Shown one piece after another: positions 7,656 to 51,359 of a DNA stretch of 64,000 nt. Made by a program: the position numbers and the translations under genes. Position 1 is the first letter of the stretch, and each line of letters starts with the position of its first letter. The notes beneath the pieces were generated by a model. The model was not told the DNA's origin, did no database searches, and worked only from the letters and a program-made list of their open reading frames with translations. Source of the stretch: Poritiphilus flavus (GTDB taxonomy: Bacteria; Bacteroidota; Bacteroidia; Flavobacteriales; Flavobacteriaceae); the NCBI RefSeq assembly GCF_009901585.1, contig NZ_WXYO01000001.1, positions 248,001 through 312,000 on the forward strand. Reading direction: 5' to 3'.

Positions 7656-9104
7656 CTAGGCACCGCTTTTATGATTTATCAAAGGAATTGAGATCTTCTC
7701 GAACTGCGACTTCACTGATTCACAGACCGGGCAGTTGTAGTGATCCGGAAGTTTGTCAAATGGGGTTCCCGCCTTGATATCATTTTTACTATCTCCAACC
7801 GACATATCGTAGATCGTAAGACAAGATTGGCATTGGTACACCGTAACCGCTACGTCTTCTTTTTCAAGAGCCTTTTTGCTCTTTTCGCGAACGGTTCCAA
7901 GTTGTTTAAAGTACTTTTTACTCAATTCCATAAGCAGTCCCGGAAGCTCGATCTTGTCAACATCCAGGGCGTAAGAAAAATAGTTGCGCGTATTCGGATC
8001 AAAATTCTCAGAATGTAAAACATTGTAGGTAGGCCGGACCTCAAAATCACGGACAATTGTCGGTGCCTGGTTTTTTTCAATGATCACAGAGGCGAAATGC
8101 GATCGTTTACCAACATCATTACTAATACCAAAAGTGAGGCCATAGGTGCTGATATCGTTCTGATCAAAGCTCCGGACCAGGAACTTCTTCAACTCCAGCG
8201 CTTCTTTATCGTCTACAGGCAAATGCCAATTCATTTCAAGTTGAGAATGCCGTACATTGATCCCTCTCTGACCCAAAAAGCTTTCCAACTCAGGCCTGCT
8301 GTTTTGTTTGATCCCTTTTATAATAAAGGACTTCCAGGGTGTAATACAGATTTTTCCAATACTGTTATCCAAACAAAAACCGCAAAGGTTTTTCAGGAAC
8401 TCCAGGTCGTACCTGTTGTTTCTCCAATACAATCCCAACCAATACCGGTCAATGCCCATCCGGTTCATCCCTTCGTAATACGGAAATGTCAGGTAGGGAA
8501 TTTCCAGTTTCTTATCAAGGGTCTTATTATTGGTATCCAGGGTCTTGCTAATAAGTGAAAATAGGGATTCAATATCGGTAATCTCTGTGTATACCTCCTC
8601 AATTACCCTGGAGATCGCCACTATATCCCAGCTATAAATAAGCACGGGATAAAAACCGGTTTCTCCCCAGCCAGGAAGGTCTAAATGCAAGTACCAATAG
8701 TCTTCCTGGTCCGATGCCACAAAATTCAGATTCCCACTAAATATAGGAACTAACCGCTGTTTGGGATCAGTAATATTGATCTTCAATATTGGCAAATAAT
8801 CAAAACGCTCCAATATATAGAGGTAGGTGGAACCCTTTAGCCAATAGGTCATTTCGAATATATCCGCAGATACATATGAAGAAACAATATTTTGATAGCT
8901 TCTGTCTTCAATGAGATTGTTCTCGAATTCCGAACTTCCAATCTGGGAAGGATCCGTATTTTCTAAAGGAAATAGCAAATCCTGTCGTGAACCGAAATAG
9001 ACTTCAGTGAGCCCAGCCGACTGGAGCAGGGTAATATTATCTTTCAATTCCCCCGGGGAAGTAACTCCGCCTTTGATCAATATGCGATGTAAATCGTCAT
9101 TCAT
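7656..9104 (-). CDS. Rubredoxin protein with a siroheme-reductase-like N-terminal region lacking cofactor cysteines
   Basis: 482 residues. The C-terminus is a rubredoxin: iron ligands C425-xx-C428 and C458-xx-C461, with the typical GTPFDKLPDHYNCP approach. Residues 1-400 look like the repeated ferredoxin-like halves of nitrite/sulfite reductases: GGVTSPGEL with FGSRQDLLF (12-45) matches the first half, and IGKICITPWKSFIIKG (249-264) the second. The C-x5-C / C-x3-C cluster for siroheme and 4Fe-4S is absent, so catalysis like that of NirB is unlikely. The gene begins 10 bp after the nitrate reductase stop and ends the leftward arm. I infer an electron carrier or assembly partner for the reductase. 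The rubredoxin call is firm, the fold call moderate, and the role is inference. Confidence 0.8.
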   Translation of the reverse strand: MNDDLHRILIKGGVTSPGELKDNITLLQSAGLTEVYFGSRQDLLFPLENTDPSQIGSSEFENNLIEDRSYQNIVSSYVSADIFEMTYWLKGSTYLYILERFDYLPILKINITDPKQRLVPIFSGNLNFVASDQEDYWYLHLDLPGWGETGFYPVLIYSWDIVAISRVIEEVYTEITDIESLFSLISKTLDTNNKTLDKKLEIPYLTFPYYEGMNRMGIDRYWLGLYWRNNRYDLEFLKNLCGFCLDNSIGKICITPWKSFIIKGIKQNSRPELESFLGQRGINVRHSQLEMNWHLPVDDKEALELKKFLVRSFDQNDISTYGLTFGISNDVGKRSHFASVIIEKNQAPTIVRDFEVRPTYNVLHSENFDPNTRNYFSYALDVDKIELPGLLMELSKKYFKQLGTVREKSKKALEKEDVAVTVYQCQSCLTIYDMSVGDSKNDIKAGTPFDKLPDHYNCPVCESVKSQFEKISIPLINHKSGA

Positions 9105-9114
9105 ACCTGCACCG

Positions 9115-12100
9115 CTAAACCGTTAACAATTTTGAGGACTCTTCCAGAATAGCTTTCACTTCCGGTTTACAACTACCGCAACCTAAACCAGCACCGGTTT
9201 CGGAACAGAGTTTTGAAAAATCTCTACATCCGTTCTCTATGGAATCCTTAATATTTCCTTCCCCGACCTGGCTACAGGAACATACTAGTTTTCCTTTTAA
9301 AGGTTGCGTTTTGGGAGCTCCCCTAAGCAACTCATCGCGTTTTTCGGAGAGTTCAATCTCCTCTTCGATAAGTCTTTTAAACTCTGCGAACTCGCTTTTA
9401 TCACCCATCAAAATTGCCCCTTTAAGGGTATCATTCCTAACAATACACTTTTTGTAAAATCGCTTTCGGACATCCATCAGGATGATCTCCTCATAGCTAT
9501 CATCATTGGAGGGTACATTTACCATCCCTATACTGCAGAGATCAAGATTTTCGAACTTCAAAATATTCATCAGCACCGACCCACTATAGATACTTCCTAA
9601 ATCACCCAAAATAAAATTCGCGGCAATATCTGCCTGCTGTTCGGCTGCCGAAGTAATGCCGTAAAGGGAATTTTCAAATTCCGCTATTTCTCCCAGGGCA
9701 AAAACATCCTGATCGCTGGTCTGAAGATGGGAGTTTACCAAAACTCCTTTTCCTGTATGAAGGTTAGCCTGTTTTGCCAGTTCAATATTTGGCCGGGTTC
9801 CTATGGCGTACACAATGGCATTACAGCTAATAATCCGACCAGTTTTAAGATTGACCAACAAGGAATATTTTCGCTCTGCCTCTTCAAACACCGTACTAAC
9901 CTCATTGTCAAAATAAAGCTGTATACCCCTTTCGGTCACGTCCTCTGCCAGTAATTTGCTCGCCACAGCGTCTAGCTGCCTTTCCATTAGTCGTGGTGCA
10001 CGTTGTATTATGCTGATATTTACGTCAATTTTCTTTAGGGAAGCAGCCAGTTCCAGGCCCAGGAGTCCGCCCCCGACTATCACAACATGCTGTTCATGTG
10101 AGGGTAATCCTGTGGCTCGAAGATATTGCCTCAACCTGTCCGCATCCGTTCGTTCGCGCATTGTAAACCGGCCGGGAAGATCCATGCGAACGTCGTTTGG
10201 CACAAAAGCCCTGCTTCCTGTAGCCATGACCAGCAAATCGTAGGTATGCTTTTTGCCCTGATCGTCAAGCACGAATTTTTCTTCGGAATTGATCCCACTA
10301 ATTCCATTATTCGGGTACAGCCGTATATCAAGTTTCTCCAATTCTCCTTGCTTGAGTTTTAGAAGGGCCTCCCAGGGTAATTCCTCGTTTACGTATTCCG
10401 GCAATAAAACGCGGTTGTAAAACGGATAGGCTTCCCTGGAAAAAACGTGGAGCTCATCGTTTTCATTTTTTTCTCTATAGGCCTGGATAAACCTGTAGGA
10501 AGCGGCCCCTGCCCCGATGACAACAACCTTTTGCCTCGGTTTTTGGTACTTCTCTACCCTTACCGCACAATACTTGAAATCCGGTTCTTTGGAAATTGGG
10601 TCGATCAATTCACTGGTCAAATTATTAGCCCGACTAAAATCTTTGTTCAAGAGCTTTCCCCAATGCATAGGAAGAAAAACTACATTTTCCCGGATATCAA
10701 AGCTGATCTTTACTTTCACTCTCACACTACCCCTTCTGCTCGTAACATTGGCAAGATCTCCCTCTTTCAATCCATACAGCAAGGCATCCACCTTATTCAT
10801 TTCCAGAAAAGGCTCGGGAATATGGGTTGAAAGCCGTTTAACTTTACCGGTTTTAGTGCGGGTATGCCATTGGTCCCTTACCCTTCCGGTATTCAGTATA
10901 AGCGGATATTCCTCACTGGTGCGTTCACTCTGGTTTTCCAGTTTAGCTGGCGCGTTAAAATGTGCCTTGTTATCTACGGTATAGTATTGCTTATCCTGAA
11001 ACAACCTGGGTGTACCCGGGTGGGTCTTGTGTGGAACAGGCCATTGAAAACTCCCCTCCTTCTTTAGTCGTTCGTAGGAGAGTCCGGAGATATCTATATT
11101 GGTTCCTTTGGTCATCAGGCAGTATTCGTCATAAACCTCGCCTGCATTGTTGTAATCAAATCCGGGATAACCCATTTCCCGGGCAAAACGCCATAGGATC
11201 TCTACATCCGGAACGGCCTCCCCGGGAGGATCCAAAACCTTGGGCAGATAACTTATCCTTCGTTCGGAATTGGTCATGGTACCCTCTTTCTCAAGCCAGG
11301 CGGCCGCAGGCAACAACAAGTCTGCAAAATCTGTGGTTTCTGACTTATGAGATATATCCTGGACTACCACGAAGTTTGCTTTTCTCAGGGCTGCTTCGAT
11401 CTTATTGGAATTAGGCATACTTACCACCGGATTGGTACAAATGATCCAAACGGCCTTTAGGCTGCCATTTTCAAGTGCATCGAACATTTCTGTGGCTGTA
11501 AGACCCGCTTCTTTTTTGATCGGTTTACCTCCCCAAAACTCCTGTACCTCTTTCCTGTGCCGGTCGTTGCCAAGATCCCGGTGAGTTGCAAGCAAACTGG
11601 CCATACCTCCTACCTCTCTGCCACCCATGGCATTGGGTTGGCCTGTAAGTGAAAAAGGCCCGGAACCGGGTTTGCCGATTTGGCCGGTAAGCAGGGAAAG
11701 GTTGAGTAGTGATACATTTTTATCTACCCCAATGACACTTTGATTGAGGCCCATGGTCCACATACTGATGAATCCTTTGGCATTGCCAATGACTCCGGCG
11801 GCCGCTTTGATCTCGTCTACGGAAATGCCGCACTTTTTTGCAGCCTCGTTGAGAGACAATTCAAAAGCGCGCTTTTTGCAGGCTTCAAAATTCGAGGTAT
11901 ATCTTTTGATGAAAGCAAAGTCTATTTTCTTTCGCTCAATAAGCCTGCGAGCTATGGCATTGAACAATATAACGTCTGTTCCCGGTAGGATTTGTAAATG
12001 AATATCGGCCAGGGCACAGGTTTGTGTCTTTCGCGGATCCACGACGATGATCTTGACATCGGGGTTTTGCTCTTTGTGTTTTTCGATCCTGCGAAACAAA

Positions 12101-12648
12101 ATCGGGTGGCACCATGCCGGGTTGGCCCCGGCGATCAAAAAGCAGTCTGCAAGCTCAATGTCAGCATAAGCAATGGGTACCGCATCTTCGCCCAGGGTCT
12201 TTTTATAGCCTACCACTGCTGAACTCATACACAAGCGGGAATTGGTATCTATATTATTCGTCCCAATAAAGCCTTTCGTCAGTTTATTTGCCAGATAGTA
12301 CTCTTCCGTCAGGCACTGCCCGGACACATAAAATCCGACACTATCCGGGCCATGGTTTTCAATGATGCTTCTAAAAACGGCTGCGGCTCGCTTCAGTGCT
12401 GTATCCCAACCTACCTTTTGCAAGGGGTGATTCCTGCTCCACCGCATTTGCGGGAACAGTATACGATCACTGGTATCCTGAGCTACATAATTCAGGTTTT
12501 TACCCTTTGAACACAGCATCCCCCGGTTAACAGGATAGGTTTTATCACCCTCAACGGACAGAACACCTTTGGAATCCTTGTTAACGGTTATGCCGCAACC
12601 GACACCGCAATAAGAACATATGGTATTATGAGACTCTTTTCGCTGCAT
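9115..12648 (-). CDS. nasA: Assimilatory nitrate reductase fused to FAD/NAD(P) oxidoreductase and BFD-type [2Fe-2S] domains
   Basis: A 1177-residue cytoplasmic fusion. Residues 1-700 are a molybdopterin oxidoreductase of the NasA/NarB type, with N-terminal 4Fe-4S ligands C11, C14, C18 and C46 (CSYCGVGCG and MLCSKGK). From about residue 705 (KVVVIGAGAASYRF) to about 1110 there is a pyridine-nucleotide-disulphide-type FAD domain like that of NirB/NasB, with a second dinucleotide motif VIVGGGLLGLELA. The last 57 residues are a BFD-like domain with CSC and CGSC cysteine pairs. It reduces nitrate to nitrite, and the fused tail could take electrons from NAD(P)H without a separate NasB subunit. A TACGTA-box operator lies 49-64 bp upstream of the start codon, suggesting its own promoter inside the leftward arm. 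Confidence 0.93.
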   Translation of the reverse strand: MQRKESHNTICSYCGVGCGITVNKDSKGVLSVEGDKTYPVNRGMLCSKGKNLNYVAQDTSDRILFPQMRWSRNHPLQKVGWDTALKRAAAVFRSIIENHGPDSVGFYVSGQCLTEEYYLANKLTKGFIGTNNIDTNSRLCMSSAVVGYKKTLGEDAVPIAYADIELADCFLIAGANPAWCHPILFRRIEKHKEQNPDVKIIVVDPRKTQTCALADIHLQILPGTDVILFNAIARRLIERKKIDFAFIKRYTSNFEACKKRAFELSLNEAAKKCGISVDEIKAAAGVIGNAKGFISMWTMGLNQSVIGVDKNVSLLNLSLLTGQIGKPGSGPFSLTGQPNAMGGREVGGMASLLATHRDLGNDRHRKEVQEFWGGKPIKKEAGLTATEMFDALENGSLKAVWIICTNPVVSMPNSNKIEAALRKANFVVVQDISHKSETTDFADLLLPAAAWLEKEGTMTNSERRISYLPKVLDPPGEAVPDVEILWRFAREMGYPGFDYNNAGEVYDEYCLMTKGTNIDISGLSYERLKKEGSFQWPVPHKTHPGTPRLFQDKQYYTVDNKAHFNAPAKLENQSERTSEEYPLILNTGRVRDQWHTRTKTGKVKRLSTHIPEPFLEMNKVDALLYGLKEGDLANVTSRRGSVRVKVKISFDIRENVVFLPMHWGKLLNKDFSRANNLTSELIDPISKEPDFKYCAVRVEKYQKPRQKVVVIGAGAASYRFIQAYREKNENDELHVFSREAYPFYNRVLLPEYVNEELPWEALLKLKQGELEKLDIRLYPNNGISGINSEEKFVLDDQGKKHTYDLLVMATGSRAFVPNDVRMDLPGRFTMRERTDADRLRQYLRATGLPSHEQHVVIVGGGLLGLELAASLKKIDVNISIIQRAPRLMERQLDAVASKLLAEDVTERGIQLYFDNEVSTVFEEAERKYSLLVNLKTGRIISCNAIVYAIGTRPNIELAKQANLHTGKGVLVNSHLQTSDQDVFALGEIAEFENSLYGITSAAEQQADIAANFILGDLGSIYSGSVLMNILKFENLDLCSIGMVNVPSNDDSYEEIILMDVRKRFYKKCIVRNDTLKGAILMGDKSEFAEFKRLIEEEIELSEKRDELLRGAPKTQPLKGKLVCSCSQVGEGNIKDSIENGCRDFSKLCSETGAGLGCGSCKPEVKAILEESSKLLTV

Positions 12649-23206: not shown

Positions 23207-23797
23207 ATGGATAATGCTGAAAAAATGGCAAGGGCCTTCCGATTATTCGATGAGGCCAATAGCAAGGATCCAAATAAGGATGAATTCGAGGGCAGCAAAC
23301 ACCCAAAAGAACTGCTCTACGCCAAACGGATGACCGAGACCCTAACTGCGTTTGCCCCTGAGGCTTCGGAAGCAGTTCAATTGAGTGCCAGATGCCAGCA
23401 TCTCAGACGCTGGGAGATCCCCAGAGACCGATACGAGATGAACCGGGTGGGATATCTGAAGTGGCGGCAGGAACTAAAGAAATTCCATGCCGAAAAAGCG
23501 ACAGAGATACTGGAATTTGTAGGGTACGATGCTGAAACCATAGCCCAGGTTCAATTCCTGCTTCTTAAAAAACAACTCAAGAAAAGTCCGGAAACCCAAA
23601 TGCTTGAGGATGTAATTTGCCTGGTTTTTATGACCTACTACTTGGAAGAATTTGCTCAAAAGCACCCTAAGGACAAGTTGATCGATATTCTGCAAAAGAC
23701 CTGGCGCAAAATGTCTGAAAAAGGACAGGCAGCCGCCCTGGAATTACCATTCTCAGATCATGTCGCGCTTCTGGTAAGGGAAGCTATCTCAGGCTGA
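23207..23797 (+). CDS. DUF4202-type protein of the nitrate operon
   Basis: 196 residues, soluble and mostly helical, no signal peptide or membrane segment. It resembles DUF4202: opening with ARAFRLFDEANSKDPN, then LLYAKRMTETL, LSARCQHLRRWEIPRDRYEM and an H/D-rich helical core (SARCQHLRRW). The conserved histidines and acidic residues suggest a metal-binding HD-like helical protein, but no activity is known to me. It sits 16 bp after nirD and 30 bp before the sensor kinase gene, so a role in nitrite reduction or siroheme handling is inference from position. Confidence 0.75.
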   Translation: MDNAEKMARAFRLFDEANSKDPNKDEFEGSKHPKELLYAKRMTETLTAFAPEASEAVQLSARCQHLRRWEIPRDRYEMNRVGYLKWRQELKKFHAEKATEILEFVGYDAETIAQVQFLLLKKQLKKSPETQMLEDVICLVFMTYYLEEFAQKHPKDKLIDILQKTWRKMSEKGQAAALELPFSDHVALLVREAISG

Positions 23798-46846: not shown

Positions 46847-49800
46847 TTAGGCTGGGCCCGCTTCAGCATTGGATTTTTTTATATTCCTCCCTCTTTCCGG
46901 TAACCTTCTGGTGGCGGTTTTCATTTCCGCATACCGCGGATCCGGGATATAATCTTGCTTCTGCATTTTTAAGACCTCTATGCTCAAAAAGCCAAACTCA
47001 CTGACAACTTTCCCGTAAAAGCGGTAGATACCCCTGCCCCTGAAATGGTATTTGGCTGCCACGGGAGGAAAAAGCACTGTATCGAAAACCTCTCCGAACT
47101 GGTCTACCAGGGTGGCAAAATGCATTCGTTTCCCGCTATGGGTATTGGTGTTCTTAACAGTGACCAGATAACCGTAAATATCGATATACCTGTCCAGGTA
47201 TTCCGGCAGACTGTGGCAGCCATTCTTATTTACAGGTGGGGTGGCCAGAAGATCAAAAGGGCTGCGCAAACAGAAGCCCAATAACTCCAGTTGGGTAAAA
47301 GCGGTTTCAAGGTCCGTAGTATATAATTTCGGGATCTTGAAATTGTTTCTTTCCGGAGGAAACAGTTTTGGGTGATCAGGCAATAAATCCTTGGAGATCA
47401 ATAAATGGGCCTGCCACAACAGTCGGTGTTTGTTGATCCCGGTAAAGCGAAAAGCATCGATACGGATGAGGATGCTCAGCTGCTCCGCGGAAACGGATAC
47501 CCGGTCTAAAAAATCTTCCAGGGAGCTAAAAGGCCCCTCTTTCTGCCTTGCGGAAAGAATGCGCTCCATTACCCTGGACTCTAATTCCTTCAGGTACATA
47601 AATCCCAGGTAAATATCTGTTCCGTAAATGCAGTTAGCTGCCTCGCTTTTGTTGATGCAGGGGGCGTGTATGCCAGCTCCCAACATGCGGGCTTCGTGCA
47701 CATAAAATTCCGAACGGTAAAAACCGCCGCCATTATTGAGCACTGCCACCATATACTCCAGCGGATAATAAGCCCGTAAAAACAAGCTTTGGTAACTCTC
47801 TACGGCATAAGAGGCAGAGTGCCCTTTGGCAAAGGCATAACCTGCAAAACTGGCTACCTGGTTCCAGATCTCAAAAATGAGTTTGTCTTCATACCCTTTT
47901 TTCCGACAGTTTGAAATAAACTTGTCTTTCACTTTTTGAAATTCTTCCCGTGACCGGAACTTTCCGCTCATTCCCCTCCGTAAGACATCTGCTTCGCCCA
48001 GGGTAAGATCCGCAAAGTAGTGTGCTACTTTGATGACGTCTTCCTGGTAAACCATTACTCCATAGGTATCGGGCATAATATCCAGCATTACCGGATGGGC
48101 TTCCTTCTCTGCCCTACCCTCATTCCGGTGACGAAGGATATATTCCCGCATCATCCCGCTCTTAGCCACCCCCGGCCGAATGATAGAACTCGCGGCAACC
48201 AGGCCCAGGTAATTGTCTACCTGCAATTTTTTTAAAAGCATACGCATAGCCGGCGATTCTACATAAAAGCAGCCCATACACTGTGCTGTTTTTATGAGGT
48301 TATTGATATTCGGATCCTTTTTAAATGTCCGGATGTCGTGGATGTCTACTTTTGCAAATTCCACAGGCTTGTTATAAGACAGTATATGCAGGGTTTCCTT
48401 GATCTTTGCCAGTCCGCGCTGTCCCAGAATATCAAACTTATACAGGCCCACATCTTCCGCGATCACCATATCAAATTGGGTGGTAGGAAAGCCTTTGGGT
48501 GGCAGGTGGGTGGAAGAAAAATAATGAAGTGGCCTCTCGCTGATCAAAATCCCACCGGCATGAATGCTCAGGTAGTTAGGCATATTTCTGATAAGTCTGC
48601 CGTATTTCAATACCAGGGAGGATACTTCATCCAGATCCGAGGCACTGTAATGGCCTTCGCATAAAAAGTCGATCTCCGATTTCGGGAGGCCGAACACCTT
48701 CCCCAATTCCCTGATAATGCCCCGTTCTTTAAACGTAACATAAGTACCCAAAAGCGCTACGTGTTCAAAACGCTCAAATATATATTGGGTGATAGCATCC
48801 CGGTCGCGCCAGGAAAAATCTATATCAAAATCGGGTGGGTTTGCCCTGAAAAGATTGATAAAACGCTCAAAGTACAGGTCTAATTCAATGGGGTCCACAT
48901 CAGTGATCCTGAGTAGATACGCTACAATACTGTTCGCACCACTTCCTCTTCCTACATAATAAAATCCGCGCCTCCTGGCCTCCCGGGCAATGTCCCAGTT
49001 GATCAGGAAATACGATACAAAGCCTTTCTCTTTAATGAGTTCCAGTTCCTTTTTCAAGCGATCGTGAATGGTCTGGTCCGGGTTTTTATAACGATAGGGC
49101 ATTCCCTGGTAGCACAAGCGTTCTATCATTTGTTCATCTTCTTCCGTAGTGCTGTTGTACGATTTTAGATTCTGAGGTTTTCGCTGCTTTGAAAAATCAA
49201 AATGAATGCTACAGGACTGCATCAGTTGTTCTGTATTTTCAAGGATAAAGGGGTATTGGGAATAGGCTGCAGCCAGATTTGCCACTGGGAACATTTTCTC
49301 TTCTTCATTGCCTACTTCCTCTTGGGGAAGCTTGCTTAAAAGCACATTATTATCAATAGCCCTAAGTAAGCGGTGGGCGTTAAAATCACGCCTATTCCGG
49401 AAAGTAACCGGCTGCCGAACTACCAAACGGTCTTTATAAGCGATCAGCCTGGAGAAGGGAAGCCGTCTTAAATCAGCAATTGAAACCCCTATGAATTCGT
49501 GCTCGGAGAACTCAGACTGCTCTGTCAGCATTACTGTTTCAAAAGGGTAGATCACATAGGCCTTCCGGAAACGGGGAGCCCGGTCCGGGATAGGCTTTTC
49601 CTCGTGCAGGTGTTCAGACAGATAAGCGTTCAACTCCTGGTATCCCTCGTTGTCTTTCGCAATCCCTATGAAACAAGGGTTCACCCCATTCCTGAAATCG
49701 ATCCCCAGTATGGGTTTGATATTGTATTCCCTCGCTTTCCGGACAAAATTCAGTCCGGCCGAAGTATTGTTAATATCGGTAAGCGCCAGTTGGGTCACCT

Positions 49801-49885
49801 GATTTTGTTGGGCTAATTCCAACAGTTCTATTTCGGAAAAGGCGCCGTAGCGAAGGCTGTAATATGTGTGGCAATTCAGGTACAC
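46847..49885 (-). CDS. dnaE2: Error-prone DNA polymerase III alpha subunit (DnaE2/ImuC-type)
   Basis: 1012 residues, shorter than replicative DnaE. It starts with a PHP domain (YLNCHTYYSLRYGAFSEIELLELA). The catalytic aspartates lie in PPDFDIDFSWRDRD, with the DnaE motifs FYYVGRGSGANSIVAYLL, GVMVYQEDVIKVAHYFADLTLGEADVLRRGMSGK and FAKGHSASYAVESYQSLFLRAYYPLEYM. A C-terminal OB-like region follows. DnaE2/ImuC polymerases do damage-induced translesion synthesis. The start codon appears to be GTG (49883-49885), as no in-frame ATG lies nearby. dinB lies upstream on the same strand, separated by a low-complexity repeat tract; no imuA/imuB or lexA gene is present here. Confidence 0.88.
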   Translation of the reverse strand: MYLNCHTYYSLRYGAFSEIELLELAQQNQVTQLALTDINNTSAGLNFVRKAREYNIKPILGIDFRNGVNPCFIGIAKDNEGYQELNAYLSEHLHEEKPIPDRAPRFRKAYVIYPFETVMLTEQSEFSEHEFIGVSIADLRRLPFSRLIAYKDRLVVRQPVTFRNRRDFNAHRLLRAIDNNVLLSKLPQEEVGNEEEKMFPVANLAAAYSQYPFILENTEQLMQSCSIHFDFSKQRKPQNLKSYNSTTEEDEQMIERLCYQGMPYRYKNPDQTIHDRLKKELELIKEKGFVSYFLINWDIAREARRRGFYYVGRGSGANSIVAYLLRITDVDPIELDLYFERFINLFRANPPDFDIDFSWRDRDAITQYIFERFEHVALLGTYVTFKERGIIRELGKVFGLPKSEIDFLCEGHYSASDLDEVSSLVLKYGRLIRNMPNYLSIHAGGILISERPLHYFSSTHLPPKGFPTTQFDMVIAEDVGLYKFDILGQRGLAKIKETLHILSYNKPVEFAKVDIHDIRTFKKDPNINNLIKTAQCMGCFYVESPAMRMLLKKLQVDNYLGLVAASSIIRPGVAKSGMMREYILRHRNEGRAEKEAHPVMLDIMPDTYGVMVYQEDVIKVAHYFADLTLGEADVLRRGMSGKFRSREEFQKVKDKFISNCRKKGYEDKLIFEIWNQVASFAGYAFAKGHSASYAVESYQSLFLRAYYPLEYMVAVLNNGGGFYRSEFYVHEARMLGAGIHAPCINKSEAANCIYGTDIYLGFMYLKELESRVMERILSARQKEGPFSSLEDFLDRVSVSAEQLSILIRIDAFRFTGINKHRLLWQAHLLISKDLLPDHPKLFPPERNNFKIPKLYTTDLETAFTQLELLGFCLRSPFDLLATPPVNKNGCHSLPEYLDRYIDIYGYLVTVKNTNTHSGKRMHFATLVDQFGEVFDTVLFPPVAAKYHFRGRGIYRFYGKVVSEFGFLSIEVLKMQKQDYIPDPRYAEMKTATRRLPERGRNIKKSNAEAGPA

Positions 49886-49902: not shown

Positions 49903-50150
49903 TAAGTTTAAGTCTAAGTTTAAGATCAAGTTTAAGGTTTTAAGTGTTAGGTGTTAAGTGTTAAAACAAGCACTGTTCACTGATTACTGTTTACTGTTTA
50001 CTGTTCACTGATTACTGTTTACTGCCAACCGCCCACTGCCTACTGCCCACTGAATTCATCCTCCGTAGCTTTAGCGAAGGAGGACTGTTCACTGTTTACT
50101 GTTTACTGTTTACTGCCAACTGCCAACTGCAAACCGCCCACTGATCACTG
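49903..50150. repeat. Degenerate hexamer/heptamer repeat tract between dinB and dnaE2
   Basis: About 49903-49970 is made of AAGTTT-like hexamers. From 49971 to 50150 the sequence is a run of heptamers of the form ACTGTTT, ACTGTTC, ACTGATT, ACTGCCA, ACTGCCC, reaching into the last two codons of dinB. The tract is interrupted by one hairpin, TCCTCCGTAGC-TTTA-GCGAAGGAGGA (50059-50084), with two mismatches. It occupies almost the whole spacer between the two polymerase genes. Confidence 0.85.
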
Positions 50151-51359
50151 CTTCCTGTGCGCCAACACAATAGGCGGTTGCCCGTTAAAGGGGTTGTGCA
50201 TCCTGCCGATGGTTTTTGCGCCCATACTGGAAGCCCGTATCACACTTTTGTCTCCAAAGCGTTCCCGTATACGATCCATGGCCATATAAAGGTTCAGGGC
50301 TTCTTCTGTATCCTCAAAGAGGTTGATCTGGTAATTTCCGGACACCAGATGACTAAATCGCACCCCTATCAGCCGCACCAATAACCTCTTATTGTAAAGA
50401 AGCCGGAAAAGATCCAGGACCTTGGGAATAAGAATATGGTCTGCGCTGGTGTAGGGAATCCGCATTTGCTTGGAATAGGTATTGAAATCCGAATATCGGA
50501 TCTTCACTGTAACACAAGCAGTCAGCTTTTGCCCCCTGCGCAACTGAAAGGCCAGATTCTCGGTCATTGCAATGAGTATGCCTTTGAGTTTTACCACATC
50601 TATGGTATCCCGTTCAAAAGTGCGTTCGTTGGAAATAGACTTCCGGTCGCAGAATGGGATTACAGGGGTGTTATCCACCCCATTGGAGCGTTTCCAGATC
50701 ACAATACCGTTCTTTCCCAAAACCCTCTGCATAAGGTCTATCGGCATTTCCTGTATGGTCTTTATCTTTCGGAGTCCAAGGTTTCGAAGCGTTTGGTAGG
50801 TTTTATCGCCTACCATAGGGATCTTTTTAATGGATAAGGGGGCAAGAAAGGCTTTTTCGTACCCAAAATCCACTTTTAACTGGTTGTTGGGTTTGGCTTC
50901 ATTCGTGGCTACTTTAGAGACCACTTTGTTTACAGACATCCCAAAAGAAATAGGCAATCCCGTTTCTCTGATAATCCTCTGGCGGAGTTCCATGGCATAC
51001 TTATAACAACCAAAAAAACGATCCATCCCGGAGAGGTCCGCATAGAATTCGTCAATGCTCGACTTTTCAAATAGCGGCACCTGTTCTTTGATGATTTCCG
51101 TTACCTCATCCGAATGTTTGCTGTAGGTTCCCGCATTACCTTTGATAACAACAGCCTCGGGGCAGAGCTCCCGTGCCATTTTCATGGGCATGCCGGAATG
51201 GATACCATATCCCCGGGTTTCATAGCTACAGGCTGCGACTACACCCCTGTCTGTCAAACCTCCCACAAGGATGGGTTTGTGGTTCAAACGGCTGTCCAGC
51301 CGGCGTTCTACGGACACAAAAAATGTATCCAGGTCCATATGGAGAATAGTTTTTTGCAT
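50145..51359 (-). CDS. dinB: DNA polymerase IV (Y-family)
   Basis: 404 residues with all Y-family motifs: HMDLDTFFVSVERR (metal-binding D8/D10-type), VAACSYETRGYGIHSGMPM, SSIDEFYADLSGM (catalytic D-E pair), FGMSVNKVVSKVATNEAKPNNQL and the helix-hairpin-helix region KIPMVGDKTYQTLRNLG. The C-terminal little-finger domain is complete, but I do not see a convincing beta-clamp peptide at the end (it finishes ...PPIVLAHRKQ). It is upstream of the DnaE2-like gene on the same strand. A perfect palindrome 42-62 bp before its start codon may be a damage-response operator. Confidence 0.93.
   Translation of the reverse strand: MQKTILHMDLDTFFVSVERRLDSRLNHKPILVGGLTDRGVVAACSYETRGYGIHSGMPMKMARELCPEAVVIKGNAGTYSKHSDEVTEIIKEQVPLFEKSSIDEFYADLSGMDRFFGCYKYAMELRQRIIRETGLPISFGMSVNKVVSKVATNEAKPNNQLKVDFGYEKAFLAPLSIKKIPMVGDKTYQTLRNLGLRKIKTIQEMPIDLMQRVLGKNGIVIWKRSNGVDNTPVIPFCDRKSISNERTFERDTIDVVKLKGILIAMTENLAFQLRRGQKLTACVTVKIRYSDFNTYSKQMRIPYTSADHILIPKVLDLFRLLYNKRLLVRLIGVRFSHLVSGNYQINLFEDTEEALNLYMAMDRIRERFGDKSVIRASSMGAKTIGRMHNPFNGQPPIVLAHRKQ

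Follow-up and report, generated by a model that had tools for sequence, protein, structure and literature searches.

The gene at 7656..9104 of the 64,000-nucleotide stretch of Poritiphilus flavus DNA analyzed here (the window) encodes a C-terminal rubredoxin behind some 400 residues that carry motifs of siroheme reductases, and raises the question of what such a body is and what it might do next to a nitrate reductase. A sequence-only reading of the locus had taken it for an enzyme fold without cofactor ligands, repurposed as a scaffold that serves nitrate reductase in electron transfer or docking. We followed this up by structure prediction, profile comparison and a survey of relatives, and refer to the protein as RubHD and to its N-terminal siroheme-reductase-fold domain as HD.

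The RubHD locus

In the window, RubHD starts 10 bases behind the gene for a fused nitrate reductase (NasA) and on the same strand. The surroundings form a nitrate-assimilation cluster. Besides NirB and the fused NasA, it encodes a siroheme-type methyltransferase, a NirD-like Rieske protein, a LuxR-type regulator and a PilJ-type histidine kinase, and it has ABC transporter genes, these last named by eye from the sequence. The relevant features are:

7656..9104, minus strand: RubHD gene, HD plus rubredoxin, 482 aa (ORF list, ATG start, Pfam and AlphaFold2 model)
7890..9104, minus strand: HD, residues 1–405, a two-half siroheme reductase fold without cluster cysteines (Cys count, fold and profile comparison)
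8970..8996, minus strand: FGSRQDLLF, residues 37–45, with R40 aligned to SiRHP R117 and R in 132/132 relatives
8373..8384, minus strand: C241-G-F-C244, a nearly fixed C-x-x-C in the second half domain (alignment columns)
8319..8348, minus strand: CITPWKSFII, residues 253–262, with K258, which is K in 132/132 relatives and Q in 25/25 true siroheme reductases
7701..7838, minus strand: rubredoxin domain, residues 423–468, ligands C425, C428, C458 and C461 (Pfam PF00301)
9115..12648, minus strand: fused NasA, 1177 aa, a Mo-bisMGD nitrate reductase with a NirB/NorW-like NADH-FAD module and a BFD [2Fe-2S] domain, the constant upstream neighbor

The NasA chain carries FAD and [2Fe-2S] beside its own [4Fe-4S], and its FAD module in the window matches both NirB (E 1.3e-95) and NorW (E 1.1e-47). 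The C-terminus of RubHD, in turn, matches the rubredoxin end of the flavorubredoxin NorV (E 1.4e-8).

Two further observations were made in the window. A DUF4202 protein is encoded behind NirBD (23207–23797); DUF4202 also occurs near rubredoxin and cobA genes on a Hymenobacter plasmid (L250) and in locus L117, and is thus recurrent in nitrate clusters. Farther along, at 46847–49885 and 50145–51359, ORFs that resemble DnaE polymerase and DNA polymerase IV lie close together and by eye perhaps form a mutagenesis cassette.

HD has the fold of siroheme reductases

The AlphaFold2 model of RubHD, made with a 35-sequence alignment, had a mean pLDDT of 85.9 and a pTM of 0.76. When the HD model was compared with the PDB by Foldseek, the best 31 matches were all assimilatory siroheme reductases (E 1.1e-15), and VIA-align placed HD residues 5–406 on residues 81–546 of SiRHP with a Z of 27.0 and an rmsd of 3.4 over 368 aligned residues. 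HHalign comparison of HD with 25 true siroheme reductases gave a global E of 1.7e-10 (probability 97%, 362 columns) and a local E of 4.5e-8. In the predicted structure, HD is a complete two-half siroheme reductase fold that goes beyond a single half domain. The motifs FGSRQDLLF and CITPWKSFII, assigned to siroheme half domains in the sequence-only reading, are found at residues 37–45 and 253–262, in agreement with both fold and profiles, and structure prediction, the check proposed there, returned a siroheme reductase fold rather than an unrelated one.

At the level of single sequences, the signal is much fainter. The Pfam family NIR_SIR_ferr matches residues 227–275 of the window protein at E 2.8e-4 and 21.0 bits, below the curated cut-off of 24, and the HD sequence profile found nothing significant among the sequences of solved structures in the PDB (best E 0.17), so that the kinship of HD is visible only by fold and profile–profile comparison. 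The low Pfam score and the lack of a solved relative found by sequence profile alone would suit chance motifs or a mis-assigned fold. Against this stand the Z of 27.0 over 368 residues, the HHalign E of 1.7e-10, the NIR_SIR_ferr matches in each of the 35 aligned relatives, all at E ≤ 0.1 and the strongest at 7.7e-18, and a separate model of a member that lacks the rubredoxin (pLDDT 86.6, pTM 0.86), which aligned to SiRHP with a Z of 28.7 over 386 residues. Fold, profile comparison and conservation together rule out chance motifs and a frame artefact, and we give next to no weight to an artefact of any of these kinds.

The metal ligands are lost, but part of the pocket is kept

In siroheme reductases, one of the four Cys of the [4Fe-4S] cluster is shared with the siroheme. 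The first 400 residues of the window protein contain only three cysteines (241, 244 and 253), so a four-Cys [4Fe-4S]/siroheme–thiolate site is impossible; this count, which does not depend on an alignment, bears out the earlier statement that a C-x5-C/C-x3-C cluster is missing. The same holds in the family: none of 132 distinct relatives has a Cys at the positions of SiRHP C440, C479 or C483, and C434 falls in a gap. Among 35 aligned relatives, eight contain a C-x5-C string, as CxLCxxC in a half-domain helix outside any cluster loop, and one has a lone C-x3-C; the pair of motifs occurs in none of them.

Residues of the substrate pocket were compared by mapping HD onto SiRHP with HHalign, a mapping that deserves less trust in the last 100 residues than in the first half and the second half domain; the SiRHP letters and numbers were verified against the E. 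coli CysI sequence. The catalytic cations of SiRHP are R83, R153, K215 and K217. Among the 132 relatives, R117 is kept in all, N154 in 131 and K217 (as K) in 127; the R83 position holds R or K in 119, and K215 is kept in part (K or R in 91). The R153 position is never an arginine (0/132), other residues stand in place of Q121 and T115, and the R299–K308 linker stretch of SiRHP is missing from HD. The description of HD as lacking cofactor ligands is therefore correct for the [4Fe-4S] cluster and the siroheme thiolate, and overstated for the pocket, several residues of which are retained.

What remains does not look like decay. Forty-seven of 400 HD columns are at least 97% fixed across the 132 sequences, R40 (132/132) and K108 (127/132) persist as remnants of the anion pocket, and E290 and K306 are fixed in HD and different in the true reductases, as is the case for K258. 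The fixed columns and the pocket remnants make HD unlike a degenerate leftover, and the domain seems, from its conservation, to be maintained by selection for a particular site. The C-x-x-C of the second half domain is nearly fixed (C241 in 127/132, C244 in 130/132, with A or S in a few). A family-wide four-Cys metal site was considered and rejected, since positions 253, 324 and 364 vary and C241 and C244 are replaced by A or S in those few members.

One way to account for the retained pocket is that HD still binds siroheme or another tetrapyrrole through non-Cys ligands and, supplied with electrons by NasA through the rubredoxin, acts as a nitrite or NO reductase, a bacterial counterpart of the NIRFU fusion or of the NasC/Flp/Bjgb unit of NO detoxification. 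In favor of this, the positions equivalent to R83, R117, N154 and K217 are largely kept. A fusion of nitrite reductase, rubredoxin and FNR, named NIRFU, has been published from prasinophyte algae (accessible part of PMC5344333), and NasC yields NO as a by-product and is encoded in an operon with NO detoxification functions (accessible part of PMC4724949). The cluster and thiolate Cys, in contrast, are absent in all 132 relatives, the R153 and Q121 positions are lost and the linker is deleted, and we consider tetrapyrrole-based catalysis by HD improbable. Because the ligand features of siroheme reductases are absent, HD is not classed here as a siroheme reductase in the enzymatic sense.

The rubredoxin domain

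The rubredoxin at residues 423–468 matches PF00301 with an E of 2e-17 and 63.4 bits (cut-off 23), and the four ligands C425, C428, C458 and C461 are all present as originally read. They are intact in 125/125 rubredoxin-bearing sequences, and the domain is absent from seven of the 132 relatives. The rubredoxin varies more than HD, with a median identity to the window protein of 51% versus 74% for HD (124 sequences; HD higher in 94). With this looser conservation, it does not look tightly constrained by docking. Two loci, L127 (genome G190) and L235 (G405), encode a shortened rubredoxin with two CxxC pairs about 15 residues apart, in which the ligands are retained.

Coupling to NasA, and NirB as a possible partner

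Close peptide patterns were used to scan 84,980 species genomes. Of the 243 candidate stretches that came up, 202 were relatives, and the best 80 of these were retained. In all 80 of these best relatives, RubHD is the next gene after fused NasA and has the same orientation, counting two loci (L011 and L025) in which the contig ends and only the 3′ part of NasA is present. At more distant loci with long flanks, NasA was found beside RubHD, on the same strand and within about 1 kb, in 17 of 17 cases; in an eighteenth HD genome of the phylum sample (G126), the locus begins at the edge of its contig. The survey suggested by the sequence-only reading, whether the gene always follows fused nasA, thus has a positive answer for the rubredoxin form at these loci. 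A search of plasmids returned four records with RubHD, all from Bacteroidota genera, and in the HD tree the window protein lies nearest to Flavobacteriaceae, with Zobellia, Maribacter and Arenibacter among them.

In 296 genomes from across the phylum, HD was present in 23, fused NasA in 27 and both in 22. The 23 genomes are those with matches that cover HD; 71 others match elsewhere in the protein, as in the rubredoxin part. Five of the 27 NasA genomes, from other families, have no RubHD (G219, G050, G008, G155 and G179), showing that RubHD is not obligatory for NasA. There, NasA has beside it a NirA-type reductase together with genes of the flavodoxin and FNR types (Pfam on one, L169), and no NirB was found in the five genomes. 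In L167, L168 and L169 (similarly L166 and L170), we also observed that the NirA, the flavodoxin and the FNR-type flavoprotein share an N-terminal stretch with (E/Q)QRxWLNGF- or EQKQYLQGF-like motifs, as if they docked on one partner.

The same sample pointed to NirB as a possible partner. NirB occurs in 22 of the 296 genomes; all 22 have HD, and G126 is the one HD genome not among them. The five HD-less NasA genomes have no NirB either. This pattern would fit a RubHD that fed or shielded the nitrite step and had NirB, not NasA, as its partner. Because NirB and HD coincided in this way, we examined one family (f4; 117 genomes), in which HD is present in 28, fused NasA in 21 and NirB in 25. All 21 NasA genomes of f4 have HD, whereas four of the 25 NirB genomes lack both HD and NasA. 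The rubredoxin-form loci, moreover, adjoin nasA and not nirB in the 80 best and the 17 distant cases. In f4, therefore, the rubredoxin form of RubHD tracks NasA and not NirB. The candidacy of NirB is weakened accordingly, and we hold it to be highly improbable that NirB is the partner in place of NasA, while outside f4 RubHD may have a role at the nitrite step.

At the threshold used, no NasA was matched in seven HD genomes of f4. One of them, G368, has the rubredoxin form near a contig edge. In two genomes (G355 and G448), a second rubredoxin-bearing copy was seen away from NasA (L238 and L240), near adenylosuccinate synthetase- and RelA/SpoT-like ORFs identified by eye; the L240 contig ends about 300 bases upstream.

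A clade that has lost the rubredoxin

In the other six f4 genomes without a NasA match (G126, G364, G383, G385, G403 and G410), and in a second copy in G439, HD ends in a short tail and the rubredoxin is missing. The six genomes gave no match to fused NasA or to NirB. In an HD tree of 62 rows, comprising the window protein, a thinned subset of L001–L080 and the more distant members, the seven HD-only sequences form one clade with a support of 100/100, nested in the rubredoxin-bearing family; this position suggests a probable single loss of the rubredoxin, with HD retained, in six genera. Of the 49 columns that are fixed in rubredoxin-bearing members, 44 are unchanged in all seven. Since HD has been kept without rubredoxin or NasA, it probably has an activity of its own, more than tethering, as judged from sequence conservation. 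The proposed scaffold for nitrate reductase therefore stands as far as the siroheme fold, the lost ligands, the rubredoxin and the coupling to nasA are concerned, and is unlikely to be the whole story for the N-terminal domain, given a clade that has held on to it in six genomes without NasA or NirB.

All seven HD-only sequences (L230–L234, L237 and L128) have Cys at 241, 244, 253, 324 and 364, more than most members, and this pattern makes a new thiol or metal site in the clade possible. The genomes differ in their siroheme genes: G364 (98% complete) has neither a siroheme-type methyltransferase nor a NIR_SIR enzyme, G383 (83% complete) lacks the methyltransferase and has a NIR_SIR enzyme, and the other four rubredoxin-less genomes have both. 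The absence of both from G364 is a further point against a tetrapyrrole-binding HD. No conserved partner was seen among the neighbors of the HD-only genes in the loci that we read.

These observations bear on two other accounts of HD. The domain could have been recast for a new activity, its metal centers gone and its pocket remodeled, with R40, K108 and the family-specific K258 at the core, so as to bind a new anionic ligand or cofactor. The rubredoxin and NasA would then be only one context for it, and one Bacteroidota clade would be free of both, with HD working alone, in at least one genome without sign of siroheme synthesis. We put this forward tentatively, as a possibility that falls well short of being favored. 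Alternatively, HD could be a regulator or assembly factor that senses a small anion (nitrate or nitrite) or aids cofactor loading of NasA, with the rubredoxin as a redox or iron switch, a role that has been proposed for rubredoxin-bearing proteins such as PknG. The fixed cationic positions R40, K108 and K258, the stronger conservation of HD than of the rubredoxin, its persistence without rubredoxin and NasA, and the electron chain that NasA has of its own would all fit. A role in NasA assembly, however, cannot explain HD-only genomes without fused NasA, and the HD-only gene neighbors are not conserved. We consider a regulator or assembly factor unlikely.

Comparison with known systems

RubHD shares with CysI/SiRHP, NirA and plant NiR the two-half fold with both ferredoxin-like half domains, and with CysI/SiRHP the R117 and N154 positions and mostly R83 and K217. 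It differs from CysI/SiRHP in having no [4Fe-4S]/siroheme–thiolate Cys, R153 or Q121, no region before residue ≈80 of SiRHP and a shortened linker, and in its newly fixed K258 (for Q), E290 and K306.

The nearest published architecture is NIRFU, in which, as in RubHD, a siroheme reductase fold is followed by a C-terminal rubredoxin and tied to an NAD(P)H reductase. According to the accessible part of its description, NIRFU is homologous to plant NiR and presumed active (PMC5344333), whereas the reductase part of RubHD has no ligands. There is also no FNR-type domain in the RubHD ORF; its NADH reductase is in the adjoining NasA and is of the NirB/NorW type. The resemblance to NorV/NorW is of another kind: here, too, an enzyme-like body with a C-terminal rubredoxin stands beside a NorW-related FAD module, but the body is a siroheme reductase fold instead of a flavodiiron protein and the FAD module is fused to NasA. 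Like NasB and Flp, the bacterial Nas electron donors, RubHD is encoded with an assimilatory nitrate reductase (for Flp, accessible part of PMC4724949); unlike them, it has no NADH or FAD module.

In the NCBI annotation, the same gene lies between "nitrate reductase" and cobA on a Hymenobacter volaticus plasmid under the name "rubredoxin" (WP_245126150.1), which covers the tail only and leaves the 400-residue body undescribed. No description of this body was found in the literature, mainly non-subscription text and including the accessible parts of PMC7412212, PMC10232911, PMC4724949 and PMC5344333; the earlier remark that there is no described function agrees with this search.

A proposed role for RubHD

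From its gene order, its co-occurrence with NasA, the intact rubredoxin Cys, the NorW- and NorV-like matches and the fold, we infer with moderate confidence that RubHD is an accessory redox subunit, the one-electron partner of the fused NADH–nitrate reductase of Bacteroidota. NorW, the NADH:flavorubredoxin reductase, reduces the rubredoxin of NorV, and the two form a donor–acceptor pair. Since the NasA module is related to NorW, the simplest reading is that the rubredoxin of RubHD is fed by this module. The rubredoxin would accept electrons one at a time from the NADH-FAD-[2Fe-2S] module and pass them on, either to the Mo domain within the complex of NasA or away from it, and HD would position the rubredoxin. 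The dead reductase domain may have been kept because its surface and the old pocket (R7, R40, N72, K108 and K258) hold the partner or an anionic ligand.

Several findings weigh against the redox-subunit proposal. NasA already has FAD, [2Fe-2S] and [4Fe-4S], and on paper no relay is missing; five NasA genomes do without RubHD altogether. A role confined to NasA is also at odds with the HD-only clade, which lacks it. The presence of HD in 22 of 22 NirB genomes of the phylum sample leaves room for a role at the nitrite step outside f4, and the rubredoxin, less conserved than HD, does not have the look of a tightly docked part.

Implications

RubHD is a cofactor-less member of the siroheme reductase fold family, joined to a rubredoxin; to our knowledge, siroheme reductases have not been a source of cofactor-free proteins. 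RubHD-type proteins should not be counted as nitrite or sulfite reductases, and the name "rubredoxin" in Bacteroidota nitrate clusters hides an unassigned 400-residue component of nitrate assimilation. The fold without its metal site is found in three states: with NasA and a rubredoxin, with NasA and a shortened rubredoxin, and free of both. Together, these states make it testable what selects for an enzyme fold once its reaction center is gone.
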